Under the pieces are notes generated by a model. The model was not told where the DNA came from. It searched no databases and worked only from the letters and a program-made list of their open reading frames with translations. Made by a program: the position numbers and the translations under genes. A DNA stretch of 36,735 nucleotides from Deltaproteobacteria bacterium (GTDB lineage Bacteria; Myxococcota_A; Polyangia; JAAYKL01). The stretch is taken from contig JAUXHN010000019.1 of assembly GCA_030621515.1 (NCBI GenBank), positions 1 to 36,735 on the forward strand, in the 5' to 3' direction. The number at the start of each line of letters is the position of its first letter. Position 1 is the first letter of the stretch. Positions 22,248 through 29,842 of the stretch are shown here, piece after piece.

Positions 22248-22850
22248 TCAGAAGGGTTGGTTGGGGCCGCCGCGGAAGGGGCGTCTTGCATTGCTTCTTT
22301 TTCCTCTACGACCTTCATTGAAGTACCCCTCCTTGATGAACTCCTCCTTGATGTCATCGAGGTATTTCTTCTGCTTCTTGGTCAGGATGTCGCGAATGAC
22401 GATCATCAGCCCCAGGTGCTTTTTCTTGATCTTGTTCTCGTATTTGAACACCTGATCCATCTGGGCGTAGATGTCATCCTTGGTGGCGCCGTTCTCGACC
22501 AGCTTGACCAGAGCGCGCGTCTGCGCCGAGAGATCCCACTTGAGTTGCTCCACCTCCGCGTTCACGTCCGTGACCACCTTGCGCAGTTTTGCGATCTGCG
22601 TGTCGGTCAGATTCAGCTCGTCCGCGTGCCTTCGCACCATCTCTATGGGGTAGACATGCTTCTTGAGGGCGAACCTCATGCCGCCGGGACCCATACCCGG
22701 ACCCTGACCCATACCCGGACCCTGACCCATGCCCATCCCCGGACCCTGACCCTGACCCGGTCCGGGGCCGCGACCCGGTCTCTGTGCGAACGCCTCGGGG
22801 ACCAGCACCATCGCAAAAGCGACTATTGAGAATATGACTAACTTTTTCAT
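22248..22850 (-). CDS. Spy/CpxP-like periplasmic protein
   Basis: A 200-aa protein with a Sec signal peptide (cleavage after AFAQ/FAQ, about residue 22), a Gly-Pro-Met-Gln repeat (about 24-56), a helical hairpin containing an LTxxQ motif (LNLTDTQIAKLRKVVTDV) and a basic tail (RRGKRSNARRPFRGG). The family includes periplasmic chaperones and metal-sensing proteins. It is the third gene of an ATGA-coupled set with an ECF sigma factor and a membrane protein, so it is probably a target or sensor of that sigma system. Confidence 0.83.
   Translation of the reverse strand: MKKLVIFSIVAFAMVLVPEAFAQRPGRGPGPGQGQGPGMGMGQGPGMGQGPGMGPGGMRFALKKHVYPIEMVRRHADELNLTDTQIAKLRKVVTDVNAEVEQLKWDLSAQTRALVKLVENGATKDDIYAQMDQVFKYENKIKKKHLGLMIVIRDILTKKQKKYLDDIKEEFIKEGYFNEGRRGKRSNARRPFRGGPNQPF
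22691..22726 (-). repeat. 18-bp tandem repeat in the Gly-Pro-Met region
   Basis: Two exact adjacent copies of an 18-bp unit (plus strand CCATACCCGGACCCTGAC) encode the GQGPGM repeat; a third, diverged copy follows. Confidence 0.85.
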
Positions 22851-23299
22851 AACAGGTTCCTTTCTTCGCCCTGATCCCAGGACGGAATCTCAATTTCCAG
22901 CAAAAAATCCGTCTCTCCGACAAACAGCCCCTCTCCGACCACCCCGTCCTCGTAGGCCAGCTCCTCGCCCGCGCCGTCTTCATCATCCGCGTAGTCCGTG
23001 TCGCTCTCGAACAGGTAGTCGAACGGCAGGGTTCCGGCATCGAACTCCACCAGGGTTTCGAGGGAAGCGATCATCTCCGCAGACGCCGTGTTTCTCGAGG
23101 GTTGGGAGAACACCAGCACCAGCGCGACGGCCGACATCGCAACGAGACCGGGCAAGAGCACCCATCTCCAGGCATCTCCCTGTCCGCTTGAGGACACACG
23201 AGCCCGAGCCCTCGTCCACACGATATCGAACTGAGGCGCCGGTTCCCCGGCGTCGATCTCTTTCAGTATTCGCTGCAGTTGTTCGTCACCGGGTTTCAT
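22847..23299 (-). CDS. Probable membrane anti-sigma factor
   Basis: A 150-aa single-pass membrane protein: about 43 cytoplasmic residues, a helix (about 46-64: VLLPGLVAMSAVALVLVF) and an acidic periplasmic part rich in Asp and Glu. Its position between an ECF sigma factor and a Spy/CpxP-like gene, with ATGA overlaps on both sides, indicates an anti-sigma factor. It lacks the zinc-binding HxxxCxxC motif, so it is not a ZAS-type anti-sigma. Ribosome site AGGAG 7 nt upstream, inside the sigma gene. Confidence 0.72.
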   Translation of the reverse strand: MKPGDEQLQRILKEIDAGEPAPQFDIVWTRARARVSSSGQGDAWRWVLLPGLVAMSAVALVLVFSQPSRNTASAEMIASLETLVEFDAGTLPFDYLFESDTDYADDEDGAGEELAYEDGVVGEGLFVGETDFLLEIEIPSWDQGEERNLL

Positions 23300-23811
23300 C
23301 TAAAATCTCCTGACAGCAATCCTTTGAGTTTCTTTTTCCCACGATGGTAGTGCGTTCTCGCCGAGCCGACCGACACACCCATCACCCGGGCTGACTCTTC
23401 CACCGTGAGCCCTTCCATGAACACCAGTGACATCACCTGCGCCTGGCGATCCGGCAATTTCGCAAGGGCGTCTTTCACTCTTGCGGAGCGCTCGCCGAGA
23501 TCTGCCGAGCTTTCGGGATCCGGAAAAGTTGCAGGGGGTTGTGGAGCATCGATCTGCATTCTCAATACGCGTCCCCAGATCGATCGCCTGCGTCTTCTGG
23601 AAGCAGCCACTCTCCTGGCCACGCCGAAAAGGAATCGCTTTGGATCGTCGGCCGCCTTAAGATCGGCCCGGCCCTCTACTACCTCCATGTATGTCTGCTG
23701 TACGATTTCCATGGCCTCCTCGCGGTCCCAGTTCGCCAGGGCCCGAGCCCAGCGGAACAGGCTGTCGTGATGTTCGGCAGCCAGCGCAGCCGCTGTTCCC
23801 GTATCGCCCAT
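23296..23811 (-). CDS. ECF-type RNA polymerase sigma factor
   Basis: About 171 aa with region 2 (HHDSLFRWARALANWDREEAMEIVQQTYMEVVEG) and region 4 (ALAKLPDRQAQVMSLVFMEGLTVEESARVMGVSVGSARTHYHRGKKKLKG, a helix-turn-helix for the -35 element). It directs RNA polymerase to stress promoters and is likely held by the next gene's product. The start is uncertain: ATG 23811 gives normal ECF spacing; a TTG at 23856 would add 15 residues with no family likeness. Neither has a good ribosome site. Confidence 0.9.
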   Translation of the reverse strand: MGDTGTAAALAAEHHDSLFRWARALANWDREEAMEIVQQTYMEVVEGRADLKAADDPKRFLFGVARRVAASRRRRRSIWGRVLRMQIDAPQPPATFPDPESSADLGERSARVKDALAKLPDRQAQVMSLVFMEGLTVEESARVMGVSVGSARTHYHRGKKKLKGLLSGDFR

Positions 23812-23871
23812 CTCACAAACCTGTGGTGCGGGGGCCGGATCGATATGACAGTTCAATCATTTTTTTTCAGG

Positions 23872-24279
23872 TCAGAGACACACTTCGCGGACTCGCTCGA
23901 TCAGCCACCTGGCCGAAGTAAGCGCCTCGTCCCCGTCCTCTTCCTGGTAAAACTGGGAGGGGGTCAGGTCCTCGCTGCCGTAGAAGGCGAGCTCCCGGTC
24001 TCTGCGCAGGCTCCTGGATATCTTCGAGAGCCTTTCGACGTCTTTGCGAATGGCCTCGGGAAGCAACGCGATGTTCGCCTTGAGCACGGGGCTCACGTCG
24101 TGAATCCTGGGCACTTCGATTTTCGACGCCCGAAGGAGCGCCTTCAGGGCGAGCTCTATGGCCTCCTGGGATTCCCGCACCACGTCGGCGAAGCTCCTCT
24201 CCTCCTGCAATACCGCTATTGCCTTGAGGCGCGCCGATGCGCGGTTTAGATAATCTTCAACCAGGGATTCGTTTCTCAT
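23872..24279 (-). CDS. HEPN domain protein lacking the RX4-6H motif
   Basis: A 135-aa all-helical protein of the PF05168-type HEPN group, with SQEAIELALKALLRA (about 36-50), HDVSPVLK and the late RRDRELAFYGSEDLTPSQFY segment. In toxic HEPN RNases (HepT) an Arg-x4-6-His motif near this last segment is catalytic; here the only His is in PRIHD, and no Arg-x4-6-His can be found anywhere. So it may be a non-catalytic partner. It overlaps the nucleotidyltransferase gene by 23 nt. Confidence 0.87.
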   Translation of the reverse strand: MRNESLVEDYLNRASARLKAIAVLQEERSFADVVRESQEAIELALKALLRASKIEVPRIHDVSPVLKANIALLPEAIRKDVERLSKISRSLRRDRELAFYGSEDLTPSQFYQEEDGDEALTSARWLIERVREVCL

Positions 24280-24859
24280 CGGGTCGTTCCGCTTTCACCC
24301 AGTAGGGTTGTCCGTAGGCGAGCCTGCGCACAACTTTACCGGAAGTAATATGATCGCGTACCTTTTTCAAAAGCAATGATGTGGCGTGCCCCTTTTCGAA
24401 CAACACGATGCCGTCCAGGGCGATTTCAAGCCAGAGGCTCCCGCAATCGGCCGGGTTTTCCGGTAAACTCACCAGGTGGGGATTGACCGGGTAGCTGAAG
24501 CCGGACGTATCGATCTTTTCGTCAAAAAGCCGGTACATGGCACGAGTCGGCGGGGTATCTGAACGAAAAACGACGAGCAGGTCTATGTCGGATGTATCGC
24601 TCTGGCTGTTGCGAGCAAACGATCCGAACAGCACAACCGCAATCGGCTCGGACAAAAAAATTCTCAATATCTTTTCGATGAACTCCCGGTCGAGCCCGAG
24701 CCCGGACCAGCGATCTACCCCTGCCTCGCCGCTCAATTTTCTTACGCAATAGGCGTTCAAAGAGAAACCCTGCTCGGCTGCCTCGGTGCTCAGCCGCGCG
24801 TGCAGATCCGACCCTACGCGCAACACAAACCGTCCGGAATACTGTTGTTTTCGACCCAT
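24257..24859 (-). CDS. HicB-like RHH domain fused to an MNT-type nucleotidyltransferase
   Basis: A 200-aa protein with two parts. Residues 6-45 (SGRFVLRVGSDLHARLSTEAAEQG ... LNAYCVRKLSG) match the HicB C-terminal ribbon-helix-helix DNA-binding pattern. Residues about 55-160 are a minimal nucleotidyltransferase with the exact signature GS-x10-DxD (GSFARNSQSDTSDIDLLVV). In MntA/HepT systems this enzyme is the antitoxin and adenylylates the HEPN partner. The fusion to a DNA-binding domain would let it repress its own promoter. Start codon lies 6 nt after the -10 box with no ribosome site, so the mRNA may be leaderless. Confidence 0.88.
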   Translation of the reverse strand: MGRKQQYSGRFVLRVGSDLHARLSTEAAEQGFSLNAYCVRKLSGEAGVDRWSGLGLDREFIEKILRIFLSEPIAVVLFGSFARNSQSDTSDIDLLVVFRSDTPPTRAMYRLFDEKIDTSGFSYPVNPHLVSLPENPADCGSLWLEIALDGIVLFEKGHATSLLLKKVRDHITSGKVVRRLAYGQPYWVKAERPDEKRIPG

Positions 24860-24861
24860 GA

Positions 24862-24895
24862 TACTATAGTACTATGATAACGATGGCGAGTCCAA
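24862..24895 (-). promoter_or_regulatory. Promoter with two nested palindromes over the -10 box of the RHH-MNT gene
   Basis: On the minus strand TTGGAC (24895-24890), an 18-nt spacer and TACTAT (24871-24866). Two perfect 10-bp palindromes, TACTATAGTA (24862-24871) and ATAGTACTAT (24866-24875), overlap each other and the -10 box. Such short symmetric sites fit ribbon-helix-helix operators and suggest autorepression. Confidence 0.6.
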
Positions 24896-25479: not shown

Positions 25480-27234
25480 CTAGAAACGCTGTTTCAGCTC
25501 GAGCACGACTATATCCTGACCATACCCAATCTCGAACGCCTCCATACGTATGTAATCATCTGTTTCCTCTGTTTCCTCGTCGAGGATAATGGGAACCGGG
25601 GCGCCGTCCAGATTGGAATACCGTTTTCGGTGCATGTATCTCAGTCCCAGGACTGCCCTGGACCACAGGCTCACCTGGACCTCCACCATTACCTCCCACT
25701 CGAAGTCGTGTCGGGTGAGGGTGTAGTAGTCCTTTTCGAACTGCAGGTTCTCTTCCTCGCTGAACTGGGGGTTTGACAGATATGCCGGACGAAAGGAGTT
25801 CTTTCCGTTCTTTTTGGAGTTCATGTACCAGTTGTACTTGAGCTTTCCCCCAACCAGCCCGGACAGCCGCGGGACGGGTGTGATCCATCTGAGATCGATC
25901 CATGCCTCCGGGAGCAGTCGATCGTACTTGATCACCTCGGGATCCAGATAGGCCCGATCGTAACGTCCGCCCACCAGCACCTTCAACTGAAGAGTTCGGT
26001 CAAAAAACCACCGGTTGTTCATGATCCGCAGGCGGGTTCTGACCGTGCTCCGGTCGTCCTCCATGTAGTTGGGTCGCACTTCGAGCTTGAAGCGAACGGA
26101 CCAGACGGACGACGGATCCCTTGCCATGGACCACCACAGCCTTCCACCTGTGGCCCATCCCATCATACTGAAGGTGTCCTCGTCGCGTGTCCAACCGCTA
26201 TCCTGTTCCACCGGCATGTGGTCAATGTAGGCGATCTCGGTATCGAAGCCGACCCTCAGCTCGTGCTCCAAACCGCCGGCCCGACCCCTGCCGATATACG
26301 CCAGCTGAAGCATGAAGAGCGTGGTGTTGAAATCCCGCAGCTCGAACTCACGTGCCGCAGAAGTGCCGCCCAGCTCCGCCCAGTACTGATCCCGGTACGC
26401 GGTGAAATTGCCCTGAAAACCATGGTGGTATTCCCCGGCGCCGAAGATGATGTCGCCCCTGAAGATACTCTCCAACGCACTGCTGTCGCCCATGCTCGCA
26501 TCGTCCAGAAACGACGACGTGGGATGGGAGTTGTAACCAAAGGATCCGATGACCTGCCCCGCAAAACCCTCCACCCTCGGAAACGAGCTCCACGAGCTGA
26601 CCCGGGCCACAGCCGCCTTCGCCAGATCCTCATCTGGCCCTTCTGTCACGCGATCCATCAACGCCTGCGCTTTTTCGTCCTTGCCCAGCTCCCGCGCTAT
26701 CAGTCCCCGGTAGAAGCTGTTGCGCTGGTCAAGCACGGGCGGAAGGCTCCGGCTCGCCATTGCAAACTGCCTGGCCGCCTCCTCGAACTCGCCGTTCTTG
26801 TACCTGGAATAACCCAGGTAGTAGCGTATCAGCGAGACATCCTCCACGGTCTTCGCGTTTGGAACGGCCGCCTCCAGGTGCTCGATGGCCCAGATCCAGT
26901 CCTTTCGCTCCATGAGGCTCAGGGCGAGAGCATAACGACTGCGGATGTCCTTTGGGTCGAACATGATGGCCGAGCTGAGCGCCCGCTTCACGTCCCTGGT
27001 GTTTTCCCTCGCCGCGGCCATCTCACCCCACGCGATACACGCGTCGACCACGCCGTCTTCCGCCATGCAGGCCTTTCGATAAAGCTTGTAGGCTCCGTCC
27101 TCGTCACCCTCTCCCTGGGCCACGAGTCCCAGGTTGTAGTCGATCAGGGCATCTCCCTCCCCGGCAGAGGCACTCCCGACCGCCGCAAGGCAGAGGCAAA
27201 CGATCCAGAGGGATATGCTTTGCGTAAATCTCAT
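25480..27234 (-). CDS. TPR-containing outer-membrane beta-barrel protein (Slam-like plan)
   Basis: A 584-aa protein with a signal peptide (cleaved near GSASA), TPR-like helical repeats (about 28-210) and a C-terminal part of alternating, aromatic-rich beta strands ending in Phe (VVLELKQRF), as expected for a barrel inserted by the BAM complex. N-terminal TPR plus C-terminal barrel is the plan of surface-lipoprotein assembly modulators (Slam) and other DUF560-like proteins, but I cannot show homology by eye. Given the many lipoproteins nearby, a role in surface export is possible. AAGG lies 7 nt upstream of the ATG. Confidence 0.75.
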   Translation of the reverse strand: MRFTQSISLWIVCLCLAAVGSASAGEGDALIDYNLGLVAQGEGDEDGAYKLYRKACMAEDGVVDACIAWGEMAAARENTRDVKRALSSAIMFDPKDIRSRYALALSLMERKDWIWAIEHLEAAVPNAKTVEDVSLIRYYLGYSRYKNGEFEEAARQFAMASRSLPPVLDQRNSFYRGLIARELGKDEKAQALMDRVTEGPDEDLAKAAVARVSSWSSFPRVEGFAGQVIGSFGYNSHPTSSFLDDASMGDSSALESIFRGDIIFGAGEYHHGFQGNFTAYRDQYWAELGGTSAAREFELRDFNTTLFMLQLAYIGRGRAGGLEHELRVGFDTEIAYIDHMPVEQDSGWTRDEDTFSMMGWATGGRLWWSMARDPSSVWSVRFKLEVRPNYMEDDRSTVRTRLRIMNNRWFFDRTLQLKVLVGGRYDRAYLDPEVIKYDRLLPEAWIDLRWITPVPRLSGLVGGKLKYNWYMNSKKNGKNSFRPAYLSNPQFSEEENLQFEKDYYTLTRHDFEWEVMVEVQVSLWSRAVLGLRYMHRKRYSNLDGAPVPIILDEETEETDDYIRMEAFEIGYGQDIVVLELKQRF

Positions 27235-27260
27235 TCATCGACCTTTAAAAAACGCATACT

Positions 27261-27271
27261 ACCATAATGGT
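27261..27271. promoter_or_regulatory. Palindrome in the divergent intergenic region
   Basis: ACCAT-A-ATGGT, symmetric about one base, lies between the divergent barrel and CotH genes. It is a possible shared operator. Confidence 0.3.
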
Positions 27272-27274
27272 GTA

Positions 27275-27292
27275 GTCTTTCTACGGAAAGAC
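27275..27292 (+). promoter_or_regulatory. Leader hairpin with a UACG tetraloop
   Basis: GTCTTTC (27275-27281), TACG, GAAAGAC (27286-27292): a perfect 7-bp stem closed by C-UACG-G, a UNCG-type extra-stable loop in plus-strand RNA. It is 30 nt before the CotH gene start and has no T-run, so it is a leader structure, not a terminator. Confidence 0.5.
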
Positions 27293-27322
27293 AGCGGTGA
27301 GCATTATTTGATGGGAGTTCCG

Positions 27323-29842
27323 ATGATGATCCGACAAGCAATGAGCGCGCTATTTCTCGTCGGGGTGATCCTGGTTTGCGGCGCATGTCAGCGCGCGTCC
27401 GCGAAGAATCACATCATCCCGGACGGCTTTGAGATTTGCGAGACGATGCTCTCGGGAAACGAAGGCCCAAACGGTTTTGAATACCTCAAGCGTGTGGACG
27501 TGGGCAACACCGGCGAGCAGGACGACGAATGGGAAGACGAGGAGCCCGTCGATACAGGCCCATTTTTACTGGACCGCGAGTACACGACCCAGGACGGCTT
27601 CGGATACGTCGGCGCGCAAGGAGTGGTGGCGGTCGATCCCGGCTGGAGCCTCTCGGCGTGGCCGTACGGGGGTGTTGGGAACGCCCCGATTTGTCTTTCG
27701 GGACGTGAGGGTTTCGGCGGATATCGCTTCGACGTTCAAGACGGCGTCTACTCGGTAGCGTTTCACTTCATTGAAAAGGCCGAACACTGGAGTGGTTTCA
27801 GAAGAATCGATCTCGTCCTGGAGGGAGAGACGGTTTTTTCCGATTATGACATCTTCGAGGAAGTGGGAAATCGCTTCATGGTGACCGCGAAGGCAGTCGC
27901 AAAGGTTGAAGACGGCCATCTGGACATCGAGCTTGGATCTCTGGGCGCAAAGGAATCTCCTATCCTCTCCGGACTCGAGGTCGAGACTATCGATCCTGAC
28001 AGCAACGCCCCGGCGGAGGTGACGGAACTCATCGCCCGCGGAGGATACGAGCAAGCGGTACTGAGCTGGCGCAACTCCCCTGACGATGATCTTCGCGGCG
28101 TGAACGTGTGGAGACGCGAACAGGAAAAGGGGCCGTGGACGCGGGTGAATCCCAGGGTTGTTGCGGTTGCTCACTTTGTGGATCACGGCGCGCAGGCGGG
28201 GAAGAGCTATTTTTACAAGGTGACGTCCGAGGACATTTTCTGCAACGAGTCGAAGGGAGTGGAGATCGGCCCGGTGACAATACTGGATCACTCCCAATCT
28301 TCTCTTCGGGTTTTCGATCTGGACATGTCGCCCGAGGCGATAGTCGCCATGACGAAAGACGTGAGTTCGGATACGTACGTTCCCGCGACGCTGATGATAG
28401 ACGGTCAGGCGTACTCGGTGGAAGCGCGAAACAGAGGAGCATCCACGAGGTACTTGTCAAAGCCGAACTTCAAGATACGGCTCAAGAACGATGTGCTGTA
28501 TCAGGGACGAAACGGCTTCAAGCTCAACTCCGAGGTGGTCGACGATACGACGATCAGCGAGAAGCTTGCTTACGATATGTTCAACGAGACCGATGCGATA
28601 GCGCCCGACGCGAGCTACATCCATCTCTCGTGGGCGGGAAGATACATGGGCGTCTATACCGAGATTCAGGAGGTGGACAGGCTGTTCTTCGCGGACAACG
28701 GGATCTCCGATGAGGGGAACCTTTACCGGATGGGGACCGGCATGTTGAATGTCCTCTCCGACAACGCACAGTACGAGGAAACCTACGAAAAGAAGACAAA
28801 CGAGAGCGATCCCGCCGGATACTCGGATATTATCAAGCTCACGGAGGATCTCGCCGGGACCGCGGAACACCTGTTCGCGGGATGGTTCGATCTGCAGTTC
28901 GCCTCGGACGAATACATTGATTTTCTGGCTGTAAATGCCCTCATCGCCAATTACGACATGATCGACGGAAATCAGTACATGTATCACGACACCCTGCTCG
29001 ACGAGTGGCACCACATTCCCTGGGATTACAACAACGGCACATTTGCAGCCGCCGGCCTCCCGCTGACCACGATGACCGTTTACGGCGCGGGGATGGAGAA
29101 TCCATGGTGGTTCAACTCCATCACGCGAGTGATTACAAATACGGATCTGCGGACGCGGTTGCTCGCACGGATCGAGGCCCTCATCTCTGGTGTCTTGAGC
29201 AGCGAAAAGATCGTCGAGCTGTGCAAATCCGCGGTGGAGAGCGCCGCCGTCGACGTTGCGCTGGATCCCTGGATGGTCGCGTGGAAGAGGGATCAGTCGT
29301 TCGTGAACGACGTGGTTCCCGCGATGGAGGATTTCGCTTCTCAAAGGACGGCGTTCCTGAGCGGGGAGATCGCCGCGATGCAATCGATCCACGGGCCGCT
29401 GGTGATCAACGAGTTTCAGTTGAACAACACAGGACAAATAACGGATGAGTATGGCGAGGCGGATCCATGGATCGAGCTTTACAATCGTGGAAACGAGACA
29501 GTGGAGTTGGCGGGGATCTGCCTGACCGCCGATCTGCGCGACTTCGAGGGGGTGCATTGTTTCGGGGACGTGACGGTGATCGGGCCGGGGCAGGTTCTCG
29601 TCCTCTTTGCGGACGGAGAGCCGGATCAAGGTGATCTGCACCTGGGTTTCACGCTGAGTTCAGAAGGAGGGGAGATCGGTCTCTTCTCCCAGGAAGAGGG
29701 AGAAGGTGAAGAGGAGGGCGAGAGCAGCACCGTGCACGACCTGGTGTTCTACGCCGTTCAAAACCCCGGCGAATCATATGGCAGAACGAGCAATGGCGCG
29801 GAACTATGGGGATCGATGACGGTGCCCACACCTGGATCATGA
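27323..29842 (+). CDS. Malectin-CotH-lamin-tail lipoprotein
   Basis: An 839-aa secreted protein. A signal peptide with a possible lipobox VCGAC is followed by a malectin-like carbohydrate-binding domain (about 75-230: LDREYTTQDGFGYVGAQG ... AFHFIEKAEHWSGFR), an FnIII-like segment (about 240-330), a CotH kinase domain (about 345-690, with FKIRLKN, GRNGFKLNSE, YMGVYTEIQEVDRLFF and HIPWDYNNGTF) and a C-terminal lamin-tail-like beta domain (LVINEFQLNNTG ... WIELYNRGNETVELAGICL). CotH domains are protein kinases in spore coats and atypical elsewhere. Start chosen at 27323 because GGAG lies 5 nt upstream; the longer frame runs into the opposite gene. First gene of a coupled operon. Confidence 0.9.
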   Translation: MMIRQAMSALFLVGVILVCGACQRASAKNHIIPDGFEICETMLSGNEGPNGFEYLKRVDVGNTGEQDDEWEDEEPVDTGPFLLDREYTTQDGFGYVGAQGVVAVDPGWSLSAWPYGGVGNAPICLSGREGFGGYRFDVQDGVYSVAFHFIEKAEHWSGFRRIDLVLEGETVFSDYDIFEEVGNRFMVTAKAVAKVEDGHLDIELGSLGAKESPILSGLEVETIDPDSNAPAEVTELIARGGYEQAVLSWRNSPDDDLRGVNVWRREQEKGPWTRVNPRVVAVAHFVDHGAQAGKSYFYKVTSEDIFCNESKGVEIGPVTILDHSQSSLRVFDLDMSPEAIVAMTKDVSSDTYVPATLMIDGQAYSVEARNRGASTRYLSKPNFKIRLKNDVLYQGRNGFKLNSEVVDDTTISEKLAYDMFNETDAIAPDASYIHLSWAGRYMGVYTEIQEVDRLFFADNGISDEGNLYRMGTGMLNVLSDNAQYEETYEKKTNESDPAGYSDIIKLTEDLAGTAEHLFAGWFDLQFASDEYIDFLAVNALIANYDMIDGNQYMYHDTLLDEWHHIPWDYNNGTFAAAGLPLTTMTVYGAGMENPWWFNSITRVITNTDLRTRLLARIEALISGVLSSEKIVELCKSAVESAAVDVALDPWMVAWKRDQSFVNDVVPAMEDFASQRTAFLSGEIAAMQSIHGPLVINEFQLNNTGQITDEYGEADPWIELYNRGNETVELAGICLTADLRDFEGVHCFGDVTVIGPGQVLVLFADGEPDQGDLHLGFTLSSEGGEIGLFSQEEGEGEEEGESSTVHDLVFYAVQNPGESYGRTSNGAELWGSMTVPTPGS

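Follow-up and report, generated by a model that had tools for sequence, protein, structure and literature searches.

A HicB-type ribbon-helix-helix nucleotidyltransferase paired with a class II HEPN protein: a probably autoregulated variant of HEPN/MNT pairs

On the minus strand of a 36,735-nucleotide stretch of DNA from a Deltaproteobacteria bacterium (hereafter, the window), two overlapping genes code for a nucleotidyltransferase (NTase) having a HicB-type ribbon-helix-helix (RHH) domain at its N-terminus and for a HEPN protein of family PF05168. The pair is best read as a variant of the class II HEPN/MNT pairs, its new parts being the RHH fusion and a set of palindromes just upstream. We hold it fairly probable that this is an autorepressed class II module working like a toxin-antitoxin system.

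The gene pair and its distribution

The NTase gene (nt 24257–24859, minus strand; 200 aa) comes first and is followed by the HEPN gene (nt 23872–24279, minus strand; 135 aa). The ATG at 24859 is the only in-frame start of the former, and the start Met of the latter is kept in 73/79. The 23 nt overlap of the two genes (nt 24257–24279, minus strand), already reported in the initial annotation, was confirmed by the ORF coordinates. Chance or mis-called ORFs were ruled out, both proteins and the gene order being conserved in relatives, such as the locus L002, which shares both genes (40% and 56% identity).

Right after the HEPN gene, the same strand carries a likely envelope-stress operon (nt 22248–23856), comprising an ECF sigma factor (nt 23296–23856; Pfam Sigma70_ECF, E 1.3e-10), a possible anti-sigma factor of 150 aa, encoded by an overlapping gene and containing a single hydrophobic stretch, and a protein rich in Gly, Gln and Met whose resemblance to LTXXQ (Spy/CpxP) falls short of the Pfam cut-off. 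A large protein with malectin, CotH kinase and lamin-tail domains (Pfam) is encoded at nt 27215–29842 of the plus strand.

In 84,980 species genomes, a single scan based on a HEPN alignment yielded 451 pattern hits, with 334 relatives confirmed; the best 80 were retrieved. These 80 loci were picked by the HEPN patterns DVVRE[SCA]QE and FYG[SAD]EDLT, and this selection accounts in part for the conservation within the two patterns; it does not for that of His60, the RRDRE cluster and the whole NTase, which lie outside them. An NTase was found directly upstream of the HEPN in 77 of the best 80 loci; L117 has none, and the remaining two lie at the edge of a contig. The search for the same fusion in other genomes, recommended by the initial annotation, was successful: 72 of the 77 upstream NTases start with an RHH domain, in at least nine phyla (Acidobacteriota, Bdellovibrionota, Myxococcota, Pseudomonadota, Gemmatimonadota, Spirochaetota, Planctomycetota, Deinococcota and Hydrogenedentota), thus indicating that the fusion is not due to chance. 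In related genomes, the NTases of other class II pairs lack the RHH. The occurrence of the RHH-NTase/HEPN pair is patchy, and within the phylum of the window an RHH-NTase is rare, being found in 3 of 379 genomes when only the best candidates per genome were scored.

Neither a conserved third gene nor a defence context was found around the pair among the family loci, the largest flanking gene clusters being antisense shadow ORFs of the NTase-HEPN pair itself. A search for phage or plasmid copies of the pair gave no match, and no specific model for it was found in NCBIfam and PADLOC. In three loci (L013, L014 and L017) the NTases lack an RHH, are longer and end in sequences such as WDLKPDF, and the HEPNs are of the same broader type; these loci are a possible sister branch.

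The NTase protein

The HicB-like RHH domain proposed at the N-terminus of the NTase was borne out by Pfam, which matched HicB (PF05534) at residues 5–42 (nt 24734–24847, minus strand; E 2.3e-11) and NTP_transf_2 (PF01909; E 7.7e-10), both above the cut-off. The HicB domain was matched in 59 of 64 NTase relatives by the Pfam scan, with the RHH Arg14 invariant (64/64) and Asn35 kept in 63. In the AlphaFold2 model (mean pLDDT 92), a short extended segment precedes two helices (residues 17–29 and 34–42), which is the arrangement of an RHH monomer, so that the structure prediction suggested for residues 6–45 returned RHH-type helices and not a different fold. The linker between the RHH and the MntA-like NTase domain is less certain in the model.

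The NTase sequence GSFARNSQSDTSDID (nt 24581–24625, minus strand) corresponds to the catalytic motif GSx10DxD, whose G79, S80, D91 and D93 are invariant in all the 64 relatives. The best PDB matches of the model were the MntA antitoxins 7bxo, 6m6u and 8xeh, and structural similarity with ANT/KNTase enzymes was also observed. In this superfamily, the third catalytic carboxylate is often located on the strand corresponding to NTase residues 125–131 (nt 24467–24487, minus strand); in the family this segment reads roughly [VI]xPHFVH and a conserved acid is absent. Trp143, Glu145, Gly183 and Trp187 are invariant in the family instead.

The HEPN protein

Among the HEPN families considered, only PF05168 reached the Pfam cut-off (E 2.2e-18), and the class I families PF01934 and PF08780 did not. 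The AlphaFold2 model (pLDDT 90) matched the PF05168 structures 1wol, 1ufb, 2hsb and 1o3u, and the sacsin HEPN 3o10. Inspection of the sequence agreed with the initial annotation that the HEPN of the window has no R-x4-6-H. Its reading of this absence as an anomaly was mistaken, the missing motif being a class trait of PF05168 HEPN/MNT pairs (PMC7641770; PMC3710099).

In the alignment of 81 family HEPNs, the region lining up with the RX4HXY motif reads RRDREL[A/S]FYG, with R93-D-R-E-L-A98-F-Y100 at nt 23980–24003 (minus strand) of the window. The His position is occupied by Ala in 71 sequences and by Ser in 10, and hence the alignment does not place a conserved Arg and His in the catalytic site. 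Arg93 is kept in 79 sequences (Lys in two) and Tyr100, matching the AMP acceptor position of HepT, in 78. An R-x4-6-H occurs elsewhere in 37 of the 81 sequences, but at scattered and unconserved positions.

His60 (nt 24100–24102, minus strand) is kept in 80 of the 81 sequences, the adjacent Asp61 in all of them, and the cluster R92 R93 D94 R95 E96 is nearly invariant. Members of the HEPN-T class often lack the His of the motif, yet have another conserved His N-terminal to it, and an alternative active site has been proposed for this class (Anantharaman 2013, PMC3710099), His60 being a candidate for such an alternative catalytic His. AbiV has been linked to the HEPN-T class by its alternative His (PMC3710099), and it is called an RNase in the title of PDB entry 9bj6. 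An alternative RNase site formed by His60 and the RRDRE cluster is possible, judging from these conserved residues. In a loose alignment, His60 was present in 8/8 alignable class II sequences from relatives, including the window's own copy, and the RRDRE cluster was missing in most of them.

Upstream palindromes

Tandem palindromes at the start codon were first seen in the window (TAGTACTATAGTATCA) and in the locus L012 (TGGTACCATGGTACCA), before the 80 loci were retrieved. In the window, the tandem TAGTACTA-TAGTATCA, with 8-bp spacing (nt 24859–24874, minus strand), abuts the start codon and ends on it. The degenerate word TRRTAYYA was fixed after reading the new upstream regions, its test being consequently not fully blind; of 74 RHH loci, 72 have this palindromic 8-mer in the 130 nt preceding the RHH, and 53 have it in two or more copies, against 0.8% (twice or more, 0%) in random control windows from the same loci and 3.4% (two or more copies, 0.05%) in mononucleotide shuffles. 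A word-free count gave TAGTATCA (35), TGATATCA (25) and TAGTACTA (21) among the commonest upstream 8-mers, the highest 8-mer count in control windows being at most 9. Ordinary class II pairs carried TRRTAYYA in 2 of 25 cases, over a longer 270 nt stretch.

The word was found upstream of none of the five RHH-less family loci. These loci (L082, L088, L101, L108 and L109), whose NTases have no RHH, also have no upstream palindromes, as if the RHH domain and the putative operator had been lost together. On the tree the direction of the joint loss is consistent, with one independent pair on supported branches and four on all branches, too few for a test.

The spacing between TRRTAYYA copies is mostly 8 bp (27) or 21–24 bp (24). 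On the HEPN tree, many forks of which have poor support, just two changes of this layout are seen. The tandem is present at a single site of the whole 4.64-Mb genome, namely its own locus. The -35/-10 elements of the window itself are weak. Boxes resembling -35 at 16–18 bp spacing over the operator were counted in 14 loci, against 1–8 at other spacings, which is suggestive only of a consensus promoter over the operator. That the palindromes represent a candidate operator at the pair's own promoter is well supported by the upstream sequences.

Comparison with known systems

With the class II HEPN/MNT pairs (Makarova 2009, PMC2701414), defined by Yao 2020 (PMC7641770) as PF05168/PF01909 pairs without RX4HXY, the pair shares the PF05168 HEPN devoid of that motif (catalytic His in 0/81), the conserved tyrosine (Tyr100, 78/81) and the upstream GSx10DxD NTase, which is adjacent in 77 of the 78 loci whose upstream region is long enough (none in L117). 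Unlike in class II pairs, a HicB-type RHH stands at the N-terminus of the NTase and conserved palindromes precede the operon; moreover, the HEPN reads RRDREL[A/S]FYGxEDL where other class II members have ARYP.

Gene order, overlap, GSx10DxD, NTase fold and position of the acceptor Tyr are all shared with the type VII (class I) MntA/HepT system, as in S. oneidensis SO_3165/SO_3166. However, the HEPN belongs here to PF05168 and not to PF01934/PF08780, its catalytic His is missing, and the NTase has an RHH whereas MntA has no predicted DNA-binding domain (PMC4621449). We filed the pair under class II and not under type VII because both RX4HXY and PF01934/PF08780 are lacking, though it may still work like type VII. 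In the paREP1 fusions an RHH is likewise joined to a HEPN/MNT-type component (Makarova 2009, PMC2701414), but there it stands on the HEPN, in archaea and without an MNT operon, while here it stands on the NTase.

The RHH domain and the putative palindromic operator at the pair's own promoter are also found in type II systems with RHH antitoxins (RelB, VapB/FitA, HicB), where the antitoxin-repressor is encoded first and the operator lies at the start; in the present case, by contrast, the antitoxin-like role falls to a nucleotidyltransferase enzyme, with a HEPN protein as its partner. The pair differs from HicAB in that neither a HicA toxin partner nor the HicB RNase H-like fold was found in the Pfam scan of the window, and the resemblance to HicB appears limited to the RHH part of the NTase. 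An RHH-MNT fusion or an operator of this kind was not found in our literature search, whose coverage of subscription papers was poor, so that absence is not proof.

Proposed mechanism and alternative explanations

Autoregulation of the pair, one of the two possibilities raised by the initial annotation, is well supported by the conservation of the RHH and of the palindromes just upstream of the RHH loci. In the autorepressed module that we favour, the N-terminal RHH of the NTase would dimerise on the tandem 8-bp palindromes at its own promoter, thus shutting off the pair. The second gene would provide the PF05168 HEPN effector, which the NTase would bind and, most likely, adenylylate at Tyr100, leaving it silent, as MntA does on Tyr104 of HepT (Yao 2020, PMC7641770). 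Once the NTase is lost, the operon would be derepressed and the HEPN, no longer held silent, would attack RNA by way of an alternative site made of His60 and the RRDRE cluster, or else would simply bind it.

In favour of this reading, TRRTAYYA distinguishes the RHH loci (72/74) from the RHH-less ones (0/5), no third gene is conserved and the occurrence is patchy. Repression by the RHH-NTase, which we infer together with the RNA target of the HEPN, fits the operator and the precedent of S. oneidensis SO_3165 MntA, that represses its own promoter without a DNA-binding domain (PMC4621449). A first position of the NTase gene is the usual antitoxin order (PMC3710099). No class II pair had been studied biochemically as of Yao 2020 (PMC7641770), so that toxicity of the HEPN and its AMPylation by the NTase are proposed by analogy; the same paper noted in class II HEPNs a conserved tyrosine as a possible site of adenylylation. 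The toxic act of the HEPN is the weakest step of the mechanism. Counting against the favoured reading are the loss of the RX4HXY His in all sequences, the lack of a conserved acid on the strand that often holds the third carboxylate, the weak -35/-10 and the failure to find phage or plasmid copies.

The replacement of the RX4HXY His by Ala or Ser in all 81 HEPNs would also suit a catalytically dead RNA-binding protein, blocking translation instead of cutting RNA, in line with the non-catalytic action proposed for motif-less HEPNs (Anantharaman 2013, PMC3710099). We regard this as rather unlikely, since His60 and R92 R93 D94 R95 E96 are nearly invariant, and the alternative active site proposed for the HEPN-T class, to which AbiV is linked, speaks against it. 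Roles might otherwise be reversed or merged: the NTase would be the effector, with RNA, protein or a small molecule as the target that it modifies, and the HEPN would serve it as a regulatory or substrate-binding subunit. An NTase effector with a HEPN-type subunit was reportedly proposed early for HI0073/HI0074, and such an arrangement of effector and substrate-binding parts is seen in kanamycin nucleotidyltransferase. The invariant NTase residues beside a HEPN without canonical RNase motif (81/81), the resemblance of the NTase model to ANT/KNTase enzymes and the first casting of MNT as the toxin (Makarova 2009, PMC2701414) go in this direction; nevertheless the DNA-binding domain and first gene position of the NTase are antitoxin traits, its closest folds are MntA antitoxins, and a mere scaffold would have no need of the strongly conserved charged cluster of the HEPN, so that we consider the reversal improbable.

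A regulatory device derived from a toxin-antitoxin pair, the other possibility of the initial annotation, is less likely, the 4.64-Mb genome containing a single tandem operator, immediately upstream of the pair, and the flanking genes being unconserved. These same facts, together with the patchy distribution, weigh against a domesticated switch, where the RHH-NTase would control other genes of the cell and be tuned by a non-toxic HEPN; the conservation of the RHH along with its palindromes and the absence of the classical HEPN motif would be compatible with it, but we deem it very improbable. Coming back to the autorepressed module, a bolder form of it is conceivable, and we put it forward tentatively, in which the pair would define a hitherto undescribed toxin-antitoxin family, one protein joining type II and type VII logic: the RHH repressor would also adenylylate and so inactivate the HEPN toxin, occupancy of the promoter would depend on the state of the latter, and the HEPN would hit RNA via a site other than RX4-6H.

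Implications for class II HEPN/MNT pairs

There are thousands of class II HEPN/MNT pairs, and the RHH branch addresses the question of whether they are toxin-antitoxin systems. A branch having a repressor domain and upstream palindromes, spread over at least nine phyla, argues that they are, and the sequence evidence suggests that class II pairs can be wired in such a way. The branch also offers compact candidates, in which the proposed acceptor tyrosine, a candidate histidine and the DNA site are all specified, and it illustrates a way for an enzymatic antitoxin of the type VII kind to acquire the conventional autoregulation of type II systems.
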